This document shows, in pieces, positions 4,037-7,768 of a DNA stretch of 64,000 nt (positions are counted from its first letter, which is position 1; each line of letters starts with the position of its first letter). The stretch is from Flavobacterium covae. Lineage in GTDB: Bacteria; Bacteroidota; Bacteroidia; Flavobacteriales; Flavobacteriaceae. Location: contig CP067379.1 of the NCBI GenBank assembly GCA_019565575.1, positions 2,852,001 to 2,916,000 on the forward strand, in the 5' to 3' direction. The notes under the pieces are model-generated. The model was not told where the DNA came from and ran no database searches. It was given only the letters and a program-made list of their open reading frames with translations. Made by a program: the position numbers and the translations under genes.

Positions 4037-4060
4037 AAACATTTGTATATACAAATGTTT
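4037..4060. promoter_or_regulatory. Perfect 24-bp palindrome, candidate MarR operator
   Basis: AAACATTTGTAT is directly followed by its exact reverse complement ATACAAATGTTT. The palindrome lies 8 bases upstream of the -7 box of the MarR-family gene, in the position expected to block RNA polymerase. MarR regulators are dimers that commonly bind palindromes at their own promoter. Autoregulation of the MarR-nitroreductase-YceI unit is therefore a reasonable inference. Confidence 0.7.
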
Positions 4061-4068
4061 ATTTTTTT

Positions 4069-4076
4069 TACATTTG
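4069..4076 (+). promoter_or_regulatory. Bacteroidota -7 box that decides the MarR start
   Basis: TACATTTG matches TAnnTTTG. Transcription would begin around 4082, so the in-frame TTG-type start at 4074 cannot be used. The ATG at 4098 is the better start for the MarR gene. Confidence 0.6.
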
Positions 4077-4097
4077 CTGTATCAAATTTCTATAGAA

Positions 4098-4550
4098 ATG
4101 AAAATAGAAGAAGAAATTAAAAGTACAGTTACCTTATCGCTAGCAAAAAGGGTACTTCTAAATCTTACGTTCACACGAAATGTTGTTGGAGATAAATTTT
4201 TAGAAATATTAAAACCTCATGACTTATCAAGTGAACAATATAATGTATTAAGAATTTTAAGAGGACAAAAAGGCAAACCTGCTAATATGGCATGTATACA
4301 AGAACGTATGTTGGCCAAAACTAGTAACACTACCCGATTGGTTGACAAATTATTAATAAAAGAACTAGTCGTTCGAAAAGTTTGTCCTGAGAACAAAAGA
4401 AAAATGGAAATTACAATTACAGAAAGAGGATTAGAAGTATTAGAGGCCTTGGATCCTTTAGTATTAGCACACGAAAATGAGTTTGCTAATAAGTTAACAC
4501 CTGCTGAATTAGAAATTTTCAATGAATTATTAGAAAAATACAGAAGTTAA
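4098..4550 (+). CDS. MarR-family winged-helix transcriptional regulator
   Basis: About 150 residues, starting MKIEEEIKSTV. The middle carries the winged-helix core: EQYNVLRILRGQKGKPANM, then RMLAKTSNTTRLVDKLL, the recognition-helix region of MarR proteins. It continues with R---PENKRKMEITITERG, the wing. The C-terminal helix (LTPAELEIFNELLEKYRS) fits the dimerisation region. It probably represses its own unit from the palindrome at 4037-4060 and responds to a small aromatic or oxidative ligand. That response is inferred from the family and from the nitroreductase and YceI genes that follow 3 and 648 bases later. The start was chosen because the upstream start overlaps the -7 box. Confidence 0.88.
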   Translation: MKIEEEIKSTVTLSLAKRVLLNLTFTRNVVGDKFLEILKPHDLSSEQYNVLRILRGQKGKPANMACIQERMLAKTSNTTRLVDKLLIKELVVRKVCPENKRKMEITITERGLEVLEALDPLVLAHENEFANKLTPAELEIFNELLEKYRS

Positions 4551-4553
4551 ATA

Positions 4554-5185
4554 ATGAGTAAATTTATTGAATACCAAAATTGGCGATATGCCACCAAAAA
4601 ATTCGATTCTTCTAAAAAGTTAGTGAATCGGATCTAAATATACTAAAAGAAGCTATTCGATTAAGTACTTCTTCTTATGGGCTTCAACCCTATAAAGTAC
4701 TAATTATTGATAATCCAGAGATTCGTGAACGATTAAAACCTGCTTCTTGGAATCAGTCCCAAATAACAGATGCTTCTCATCTATTTGTTTTTGCAAACTA
4801 TAGTCATTTAGATGAAACTACTATTGATGATTTTATAAAAAGAGTGAGTTTTGTTAGAGAAGTACCACAAGAACATTTAACTGGTTATAGTGCATTTATG
4901 AAAAGTAAAATTTTAGAACTAAGCACTAAAGAACAAAATATATGGACTTCTAAACAAACTTATTTAGCACTTGGTAATTTGTTAAATGCTGCTGCTGAAC
5001 TAAAAATAGATGTAACTCCTATGGAAGGTTTTGAAGCCGAAAAGTACAATGAAATACTAAATCTAAATTCTCAAAATTTAAATGCCTCTTTAGTAGCTAC
5101 TATAGGTTATAGACATGAGGAAGATCTTACTCAACATGATAAAAAAGTAAGAAAATCAAACGAAGAATTATTTATTAATATCTAA
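4554..5185 (+). CDS. Nitroreductase-family NAD(P)H-dependent oxidoreductase (one frameshift)
   Basis: The restored protein is 210 residues, beginning MSKFIEYQNWRYATKKFD. It is an FMN-dependent nitroreductase of the NfsB/YdgI type, reducing nitro- or quinone compounds with NAD(P)H. The N-terminal RYATKKFD motif and LSTSSYGLQPYKVLII (FMN binding) are typical. So is the C-terminal LNASLVATIGYR segment. The frame breaks at the A run 4614-4618; one extra A gives SKKVSESDLN and a continuous protein. This matches the window-wide pattern of lost A/T bases and is probably not real decay. It lies 3 bases after the MarR gene and 13 bases before the YceI gene, consistent with one transcription unit. Confidence 0.85.
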
Positions 5186-5198
5186 CACTACATAAAAA

Positions 5199-5765
5199 AT
5201 GAAAATTTTAAAATCTTTTGCTTTAGCAATACTCGTAACTTTAGGGGGCCTAACTGCCACTGCTCAAACTTCAAAAAAAGTAGACGCATCAAAAAGTAAA
5301 GTTTTATGGTTGGCAAAAAAATTTGGTGGTCAACACGATGGAGATATAAAACTAAAAGAAGGTCAATTAATTTTTAATGGAAAAGAATTAAAAGGCGGAA
5401 ATTTTACAGTAGATATGACTACTATTAATACTTTGGATTTACAAGGTGAATGGAAAAACAAATTAGATGTACATCTTAAAGATGGTGACTTTTTTGCTGT
5501 AGATAAATTTCCTACCTCAACTTTAGTATTCAAAAAAATTGGTAAAAAGTCTACAAACACTTATAGTATAGAAGCTGATTTAACTATAAAAGGAATTACA
5601 AATCCTATAAAATTTGATCTAGTAACTAATAAAAATGTTGCAAATGCTACCCTAATGGTAGACCGAACTAAATACGATGTAAAATATGCTTCTAAAAACT
5701 TTGGCGCCCTAGCAGACAAAGCTATTGATGATGAATTTGAATTAAAAGTTCAATTAAAATACTAA
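5199..5765 (+). CDS. YceI-family secreted lipid-binding protein
   Basis: 188 residues with a signal peptide (MKILKSFALAILVTLGGLTATAQ, cleaved near residue 22) and one YceI lipocalin-like barrel. Typical stretches are SKVLWLAKKFGGQHDGDIKL, FPTSTLVFKK and the closing DEFELKVQL. YceI proteins bind polyisoprenoid or other amphiphilic molecules in the periplasm; the ligand here is unknown. It is the last gene of the MarR unit and is followed by an inverted-repeat element that may end transcription. The gene is intact. Confidence 0.88.
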   Translation: MKILKSFALAILVTLGGLTATAQTSKKVDASKSKVLWLAKKFGGQHDGDIKLKEGQLIFNGKELKGGNFTVDMTTINTLDLQGEWKNKLDVHLKDGDFFAVDKFPTSTLVFKKIGKKSTNTYSIEADLTIKGITNPIKFDLVTNKNVANATLMVDRTKYDVKYASKNFGALADKAIDDEFELKVQLKY

Positions 5766-5787
5766 ATAAATTTTTAAATCCTAATAA

Positions 5788-5916
5788 AAGAGGCTATCTG
5801 AAAAAAACTCAACATATAATCTGTCATTTAACTAAAGGGAGAAATCATATTATAAACACTATGTAATTCCCCCTTTAGTCAAAATAACAAGATTTTGAAC
5901 TTTTCGGATAGCCTTT
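5788..5916. repeat. Dispersed inverted-repeat element, subfamily A
   Basis: About 129 bp between two convergent genes. The outer arms are AAAAGAGGCTATC and GGATAGCCTTTT. A nested inverted repeat (ACTAAAGGG near 5829 and CCCCTTTAGT near 5872) lies inside. The right half (ATGTAATTCCCCCTTTAGTC, then AACAAGATTTTGAAC) is shared with the elements at 7645-7768 and 43830-43922. The outer arms resemble the ends of the IS1182 element at 33962. Confidence 0.7.
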
Positions 5917-5920
5917 TAAA

Positions 5921-7423
5921 TTATTCTAAATCTTCTACATAAAAACTAGATAAGAAAGCAATTGATTTTTCTATATCATAATGTAAAATTCGATCTTCTT
6001 TTACAAGAGGAACTTCTTCTCTATATAACTTTAAGAAACTTTCTAAAAACGTACTAGATTGTAATGGTCGTCTAAATTCAATAGCTTGTGAAGCATTCAT
6101 TAATTCAATAGCTAAAATACGTTCTAGATTTTCCATTATTTTCAAACACTTCGTTGCGGCATTAGCTCCCATAGAAACATGATCTTCTTGCCCATTACTA
6201 GAAACAATACTATCTGTACTGGCTGGTGTTGTTAGTTGTTTGTTTTGACTTACAATACTGGCAGCTGTATACTGTGGAATCATAAATCCAGAGTTCAATC
6301 CTGGATCACTTACTAAAAATGCTGGTAATTCACGTAAACCTGAAATTAATTGATAAGTTCTTCTTTCTGAAATATTTCCTAATTCAGCTAATGCCATACC
6401 TAGAAAATCTAAGGTTAACGCCAGAGGTTGCCCATGAAAATTTCCTCCTGAGATAATTAAATCTTCTTCTGCAAAAATATTCGGGTTATCAGTAACTGAA
6501 TTGATTTCTGTTTTGAAAACTTTTTTTACATAATCAATTGTATCCTTTGACGCTCCGTGTACCTGTGGAATACAACGAAAAGAATAAGGATCTTGTACGT
6601 GTTTTTTGGGTTGTTTAATAATTTGACTTCCATCTAGCAACTCTTGAAAACGTTGTGCGGTTACAATTTGTCCTTTATGTGGACGAACCATGTGAATTAA
6701 ATCATTAAATGGCTCAATTCTACCATCAAAAGCTTCTAATGAAACAGCTCCTATCACATCAGCTAAATAACTATATTTCAACGCTTTTAGCAAGATATAA
6801 CTTCCGTAAGCGCTCATGAATTGTGTACCATTTAATAATGCTAGTCCTTCTTTAGATTGCAGGATAATAGGTTGCCAATTCATTTTTTCAAGTACTTTCA
6901 TAGCTGGTTGACGAAATCCATCTAAATATACTTCTCCTTCTCCTATTAATGGTAAACATAAATGCGCCAATGGTGCTAAATCACCAGAGGCTCCTAATGA
7001 TCCTTGTGTATACACTACAGGAAAAACATCATTATTATAAAAATCTATCAAACGCTCTACTGTTGCTAGTTGTACACCTGAATGTCCATAACTTAAAGAT
7101 TTTACTTTCAACAACAACATAATTTTCACAATCTCTTGTGGTACTTCATCTCCTGTTCCACAAGCGTGTGATTTCATTAAATTTTCTTGAAGTTTTGATA
7201 AATTTTCATTTGAAATTTTCACATCACATAACGAACCGAAGCCAGTGTTTATACCATAAATGGGGTCTTTGTGTTCCACCATTTTCTTATCTAAATATTC
7301 ACGACATTTTACAATGTTTAAGCGTGCTTCTTCTGATAATGCTAATTTTTGATTTTGTGAAATAATTTCTTGTAACGTTTCTAATGAAAATATATCAGAA
7401 GAAATATAATGAGTAGTATCCAT
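5921..7423 (-). CDS. hutH: Histidine ammonia-lyase
   Basis: About 500 residues; it deaminates histidine to urocanate, the first step of histidine degradation. The MIO cofactor triad Ala-Ser-Gly lies at residues 145-147 in GSLGASGDLAPLAHL. Other family blocks are IYGINTGFGSL, QDPYSFRCIPQVHG, NPNIF and GQEDHVSMGANAA. The start is placed at MDTTHYISSD; a longer frame begins 17 codons upstream without family resemblance. A tyrosine or phenylalanine ammonia-lyase cannot be fully excluded, but the residues around the active site read as HutH. No other hut genes are nearby. The gene is intact. Confidence 0.9.
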   Translation of the reverse strand: MDTTHYISSDIFSLETLQEIISQNQKLALSEEARLNIVKCREYLDKKMVEHKDPIYGINTGFGSLCDVKISNENLSKLQENLMKSHACGTGDEVPQEIVKIMLLLKVKSLSYGHSGVQLATVERLIDFYNNDVFPVVYTQGSLGASGDLAPLAHLCLPLIGEGEVYLDGFRQPAMKVLEKMNWQPIILQSKEGLALLNGTQFMSAYGSYILLKALKYSYLADVIGAVSLEAFDGRIEPFNDLIHMVRPHKGQIVTAQRFQELLDGSQIIKQPKKHVQDPYSFRCIPQVHGASKDTIDYVKKVFKTEINSVTDNPNIFAEEDLIISGGNFHGQPLALTLDFLGMALAELGNISERRTYQLISGLRELPAFLVSDPGLNSGFMIPQYTAASIVSQNKQLTTPASTDSIVSSNGQEDHVSMGANAATKCLKIMENLERILAIELMNASQAIEFRRPLQSSTFLESFLKLYREEVPLVKEDRILHYDIEKSIAFLSSFYVEDLE

Positions 7424-7644: not shown

Positions 7645-7768
7645 AGGATGTGTCTAAATCAACATACAGTTTGTTACTCCTGCGTAAGGAGGAGTCTCAT
7701 AATCAATATTATGTAATTTCTCTCTTTGGTCAATGACAAGATTCCGAACTTTTTGGATAATCTCAAGG
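7645..7768. repeat. Degenerate inverted-repeat element, subfamily A
   Basis: The outer arms (AGGATGTGTCTAAA and TTTTTGGATAATCTC) are poorly conserved. The inner right half (TATGTAATTTCTCTCTTTGG, then ACAAGATTCCGAACTTTTTGG) clearly matches the elements at 5788-5916 and 43830-43922. It lies between the divergent hutH and gcvT genes, directly next to repeat copy 1 of the other family. Confidence 0.6.

Follow-up and report, generated by a model that had tools for sequence, protein, structure and literature searches.

A conserved palindromic word at the promoter of a Flavobacterium MarR-nitroreductase-YceI operon, a predicted operator of the MarR protein

Described MarR-type switches and the Flavobacterium unit

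MexR and Escherichia coli MarR are repressors tied to efflux. MhqR and YodB/QsrR of Bacillus subtilis and Staphylococcus aureus are MarR-type repressors as well; in the part of the source used here, their regulon combines a nitroreductase with a dioxygenase, and an FMN-linked monooxygenase is under QsrR control (PMC6798810). Among the ligands of YceI lipocalins are prenyl quinones and hydrophobic compounds; in the BcnA-LcoA system a secreted YceI-family protein is induced by stress and has cytochrome b561 as its partner (PMC5350466 and PMC9113575, in part). One Ralstonia yceI gene is induced by the phenolic compound methyl gallate and protects against it (PMC8472277, in part), and the regulator MgxR, whose effector is methylglyoxal, has a YceI gene as its neighbour (PMC4349456, in part).

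Here we describe a unit of this kind in one window, that is, the whole stretch of 64,000 nucleotides analysed. The window stems from a bacterium closely related to a fish-disease Flavobacterium. Three genes lie on the plus strand of the window: a MarR-family regulator of 150 residues (4098–4550; PF01047, 37.5 bits, cut-off 24.6), an NfsB-like nitroreductase (4554–5185; PF00881, 63.8 bits, cut-off 23.5) and a YceI-family protein, a bacterial lipocalin (5199–5765; PF04264, 89.8 bits, cut-off 23.7). All three score above the curated Pfam cut-offs, which confirms the gene calls of the original prediction. As judged by eye, the YceI protein has an apparent N-terminal signal peptide. With the downstream part of its frame as the query, the nitroreductase reaches 104.8 bits against the NfsB equivalog NF008275 (cut-off 227).

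The nitroreductase frame is broken in a short A run near 4613–4618 of the window assembly and is open from 4619; the original prediction does not mention this break. It is intact in F. columnare NBRC 100251; in F. davisii it is also broken, but in a different A run. Seven of 16 comparable genes of the F. columnare NBRC 100251 contig are broken in the window assembly, versus 0 of 16 genes of window positions 1–30000 in the reverse comparison; the same comparison with F. davisii gave 4/15 and 5/17. Because the window assembly is so rich in broken genes, a sequencing error is the simpler reading, and the break is probably an indel error of assembly or sequencing. Biological loss of a prodrug-activating nitroreductase in a fish pathogen was set aside on the same counts (7/16 versus 0/16). 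The genome of the window is rated 88% complete. The intergenic stretch behind the YceI gene (5770–5925) belongs to an interspersed repeat family that matches the genome at 38 places, this one among them; by eye, the stretches near 1550–1640 and 7660–7760 resemble it.

The original prediction had coupled a redox enzyme with the YceI protein. Neighbouring genes were scored by tblastn (E ≤ 1e-5), and the order MarR, nitroreductase, YceI is kept in 48 of 48 loci on genome contigs (L002–L048 and L050). It is the lipocalin, not the nitroreductase, that proved to be the wider partner: at the more distant loci (L049, L051–L081) YceI was found in 27 of 32, not always as the adjacent gene, and the nitroreductase in none. 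By these counts YceI is the more widely kept partner of MarR, and the nitroreductase is an addition in Flavobacterium. At eight loci of other families (L104–L111), neither gene turned up within 1.5 kb. Several of the 48 ordered loci stem from metagenome bins with other organism names; five Flavobacterium-like loci (L007, L011, L013, L016 and L024) come from bins labelled Limnohabitans, Chryseobacterium, Rhizobium or Lentimicrobium, and their contigs are probably misbinned.

The operator word of MhqR is of the TATCTCGAA type, different from the word described below, and no YceI lipocalin is named in the part of that source used here (PMC6798810). The MarR protein of the window belongs to the MarR family by its PF01047 score, its structural model (mean pLDDT 92.6) and its fold matches, the nearest solved folds being a Clostridioides difficile MarR (8xt8, 29% identity), Xanthomonas HpaR (22oz, 25%) and a planctomycete MarR. 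These proteins have the MarR fold in common. The MhqR structures 9qdr and 9smz rank 37th and 50th among the fold matches, with 22% identity to the window protein; together with the different operator word, this low identity does not support orthology with MhqR. Orthology with HpaR is not supported either, the score against TIGR02337 being 44.8 bits (cut-off 121.2). The MarR fold is likewise shared with MexR and E. coli MarR, and an RND adaptor is among the predicted targets in Flavobacterium relatives; unlike in those systems, the pump is unlinked here. Different from BcnA-LcoA, the Flavobacterium unit has a nitroreductase in the place of cytochrome b561.

A palindromic word over the MarR promoter

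Promoters of Bacteroidota differ from those of E. coli. Upstream of the MarR gene, positions 4037–4060 form a perfect gapless palindrome, AAACATTTGTATATACAAATGTTT, with two arms of 12 bases, and the box TACATTTG begins eight bases beyond it (4069–4076, plus strand); both had been claimed from the letters of the window, and both are correct. The palindrome belongs to neither strand in particular, and the gene upstream of it points away, in divergent orientation. It is the sole gapless perfect palindrome with arms of at least 9 bases in the 64-kb window; in dinucleotide shuffles of the window, arms of at least 12 were reached in 3 of 100, with a mean of 0.03 per shuffle. Measured against the shuffles, palindrome length by itself is suggestive only as evidence of an operator.

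The box is of the TAnnTTTG type; in the part of PMC9723704 from which its consensus and place are taken, the Bacteroidota-type −7 box spans −12 to −5 from the transcription start. With the box placed in this way, transcription is predicted to start at about 4081 on the plus strand. A conserved 16-bp core of the palindrome, ATTTGTAnnTACAAAT / ATTTGTATATACAAAT at 4041–4056, is the predicted operator O1 and would lie at about −40 to −25 of this start. A TTTG within O1 (4042–4045), separated from the −7 box by 23 nt, is a candidate upstream promoter element. The relic of a second operator, O2, is found 31 bp from O1 at 4072–4087 (ATTTGCTGTATCAAAT, 4 mismatches; no strand assigned, as for O1), corresponding to −9 to +7 of the predicted start, much like the palindromic MhqR operator, which in the cited part of its description covers −6 to +12 over the start (PMC6798810).

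We compared 60 distinct Flavobacterium-type upstream regions and counted the 58 with at least 100 nt, leaving out the short L014 and L101; five of the 58 stem from metagenome bins labelled otherwise, and the sequences are related, not independent. With ATTTGTAnnTACAAAT and up to two mismatches as the definition of a match, O1 was found in 57 regions (L103 is the one without it), O2, a second copy 29–33 bp downstream of O1 (mode 30), in 55, and both together in 54. All 58 regions contain the word as such; the reversed word is found in one, and each of 20 permuted palindromes in 0–6. The TTTG of the −7 box (TAnnTTTG) doubles as the left arm of O2. A first count of O2 had demanded TA three bases upstream; in a repeat count made without that demand, all second copies of the two-copy regions (54 of 54) still lie within a TAnnTTTG box; for the first copy the figure is 4 of 58.

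O2 is missing only in the window, in F. columnare (L002) and in F. davisii (L003), the two sequences nearest to it; all three keep a relic with 4–5 mismatches 31 bp from O1. F. columnare and F. davisii belong to one species complex. The full 24 bp are common to the window and L002 alone, 20 bp are shared with L003 and less with the other relatives; across the upstream regions the arms of the word are fixed and the outer bases are free. Because the whole palindrome is confined to these two sequences, the conserved unit in this alignment is the inner 16 bp, not 24 bp. Four regions (L084, L096, L101 and L103) contain a weaker third copy, with 3 mismatches, 15 bp downstream of O2 and near the start codon. 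Among 40 more distant MarR homologues, TGTAnnTACA is found within 150 bp upstream of 19, and 21 are without it; the reversed word is found at 0/40.

The word at other promoters

Across 61 genomes of the genus, that of the window among them, there are 78 copies of the exact 16-mer and 3 of the reversed control. Of these 78, 71 distinct copies were classified, the rest being unlisted, not fetched or duplicates (at least one MarR site, in G014, was counted twice via overlapping contig ends). Forty-four copies precede MarR; seven precede the dioxygenase, two each a DsbA-like protein, an LLM flavin oxidoreductase and an RND adaptor, and one an OhrR-like gene. Thirteen of the 71 initially fell in no target class. 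Among these, L177 has, by eye, the start of a MarR gene at the contig end, L156 stands upstream of another RND adaptor, at a distance of 232 bp, six are inside reading frames (L166, L217, L221, L223, L224 and L225), and five matched no explanation.

No MarR orthologue, defined as a match of at least 55% identity, was found in seven of the 61 genomes (G018, G020, G022, G042, G049, G056 and G073; G049 is only 60% complete). The exact site is present in 0/7 of these versus 43/54 of the others (Fisher p 7e-5), a co-occurrence that is partly trivial because most sites stand at the MarR promoter itself.

For each target family, we searched upstream of the best 30 homologue loci for the word with up to two mismatches; the identity thresholds given below were set after the first results had been seen. 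Within these best 30 loci, the RND adaptor has the word in 21, in 17 of them at 111–117 bp before the start, and 1 of the 21 sites lies within a −7 box. The adaptor scores 240 bits against RND_mfp (cut-off 94.9), and in L165 the next gene is of the AcrB type. The DOPA-type extradiol dioxygenase (326 bits, cut-off 233) has the word in 9 of 11 homologues with at least 73% identity and in 1 of 19 more distant ones, the other 18 being without it; nine of these ten sites are fused to a TAnnTTTG box. For the DsbA-like protein (PF01323), the word is found in 8 of 11 homologues with at least 68% identity and in 0 of the other 19, and 8/8 sites are fused to the box. The LLM flavin oxidoreductase, with the word in 6/30, is a weak candidate target. 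When 20 permuted palindromes were searched for in the same way, the matches per 600 trials were 4 for the dioxygenase, 4 for the DsbA-like protein, 8 for the RND adaptor and 5 for the LLM family.

RND adaptors with at least 60% identity are found in 38/54 genomes with MarR versus 0/7 without it (Fisher p 6e-4, with kinship ignored). In the MarR-less genomes, the site is absent from 12 of 12 homologues of the other families (dioxygenase 5, DsbA-like 3, LLM 4); all 12 are distant, and this control says little because distant homologues mostly lack the site in MarR-bearing genomes too. The recurrence of the word at likely detoxification genes suggests a defence switch against quinone-like poisons.

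The original prediction called for a palindrome search of the genome. No second match to the 24-mer with up to three mismatches was found in the whole genome of the window. The exact shorter word TTTGTANNTACAAA occurs at five places (reversed control, 1); only the one at MarR is promoter-placed beside a recognised gene, and three are inside reading frames. At L265:1700–1713 (near 616199 of the genome), TTTGTAATTACAAA lies 28 bp before a frame of 78 residues without a Pfam match; this 14-mer also occurs in two close relatives. With one mismatch, TTTGTANNTACAAA has 90 places versus 47 for the control; two of the 90 were inspected, and weaker targets may exist. The dioxygenase, the DsbA-like protein and the LLM oxidoreductase have no match in this genome, and the best match to the RND adaptor has 27% identity. 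In this organism, in which O2 is lost as well, the switch may thus control just itself and two genes, as what seems a single autoregulated operon.

Autorepression, the inducer and their meaning

The original prediction held that a MarR dimer represses its own unit from the palindrome. The conservation of the palindrome, its placement at the promoter and the position of O2 on the −7 box in almost all relatives strongly support this proposal, with the correction that the unit is 16 bp and not 24; a palindrome of 16–20 bp lies over the regulator's own promoter and is conserved with the gene. We put the probability that 4037–4060 is the operator at which MarR represses the MarR-nitroreductase-YceI operon at about 0.88. 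Counting against it are the OhrR-like paralogue of another genome that has the word in front of it, the loss of O2 in the window's group, the kinship of the upstream sequences, and the lack of the word at 21 of 40 distant MarR homologues and at nearly all distant homologues of the dioxygenase and the DsbA-like protein. A MarR dimer would bind O1 over the upstream part of the promoter. Most Flavobacterium have a second site, O2, about three helical turns downstream over the −7 box and start site, which another dimer would bind. Since O2 covers both, RNA polymerase would be shut out by the bound protein. Release of MarR would come from a ligand or an electrophile, probably a quinone or some other phenolic compound, and would switch on the reductase and the secreted lipocalin. 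In many relatives the response would extend to unlinked promoters, namely those of an RND efflux system, an extradiol dioxygenase and a DsbA-like thioredoxin.

It is quite unlikely that another regulator, for example an OhrR-type MarR paralogue, is the chief reader of the site in place of the local MarR. In G062, TACATTTGTATCTACAAAT (L170:2920–2935) stands just before an OhrR-like gene (NCBIfam 170.9 bits, cut-off 200), which is followed by an Ohr gene (171.8 bits, cut-off 88.85); the word is thus not exclusive to the local MarR. Against a chief role of such a paralogue, 44 of the 71 classified exact copies precede MarR of the local type and a single one precedes OhrR, the seven genomes without a MarR orthologue lack the exact site, and the 3-kb stretch with the distant MarR homologue of the window's genome (25% identity over 81 residues) is free of such a word. 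One operator word may serve two regulators of the MarR type in G062. Still more improbable is that the palindrome is an RNA hairpin, a terminator, an attenuator or a product of chance in AT-rich DNA. Chance does produce arms of this length in the few shuffles mentioned above; however, neither chance nor RNA structure fits a sequence conserved in 57/58 regions with fixed arms and free outer bases, nor a word that recurs at unlinked promoters, and for an RNA element the palindrome is on the wrong side of the predicted transcription start, with a divergent gene as its upstream neighbour. An RNA hairpin or terminator was rejected on these grounds.

As to the inducer, the original prediction had guessed at a quinone or another amphiphilic electrophile. 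We consider a quinone or phenolic inducer plausible, at even odds; the unlinked targets in relatives lend it circumstantial support, with the operator present at the nitroreductase unit and, in some relatives, at the dioxygenase, and with no dioxygenase match in the window's genome. Nearly as credible, though short of even odds, is that the operator is read correctly and the inducer is something else, such as a fatty acid or prenyl lipid, a product of lipid peroxidation or an antibiotic, in an envelope or general drug response. The constancy of YceI beyond Flavobacterium (27/32 loci) and the RND adaptor as the commonest unlinked target among the best 30 loci speak for such an inducer, and so does the binding of prenyl compounds and hydrophobic antibiotics by YceI lipocalins (parts of PMC5350466 and PMC9113575). 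Against it, nitroreductases and ring-cleavage dioxygenases together form known quinone regulons (PMC6798810, in part), and the target set found here resembles these MhqR/QsrR regulons in kind.

Cys96 of the MarR protein (codon 4383–4385, plus strand) follows the strand of residues 91–95 at the start of the wing loop in the model. The position is Cys in 66/66 Flavobacterium-type and 36/39 other distinct homologues, and Cys96 is a possible thiol sensor. Cys95 of S. aureus MhqR is described, in the portion of the source cited here, as not conserved and dispensable (PMC6798810).

The switch is of a known kind, and a description of this regulon or operator was not found in the open-licence papers searched. 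To our knowledge, few transcription-factor operators have been worked out in Bacteroidota. What would set this switch apart is that operator and −7 box are fused at several unlinked promoters and that the lipocalin is its most constant partner. We tentatively propose, with a confidence somewhat below one half, a genus-wide MarR regulon in which the operator and the −7 box of Bacteroidota are fused (TAnnTTTGTAnnTACAAAT) and in which lipocalin, reductase, catechol-type dioxygenase, DsbA-like protein and RND pump would form one quinone/phenolic defence, with the near-invariant wing cysteine as a possible sensor, pared down in the F. columnare group to one operon and one operator. The gain is a precise predicted operator with a defined place in its promoter, together with a set of predicted targets and a class of inducer that is simple to test; YceI lipocalins, whose role is unclear, would thereby be set into a context of regulated detoxification.
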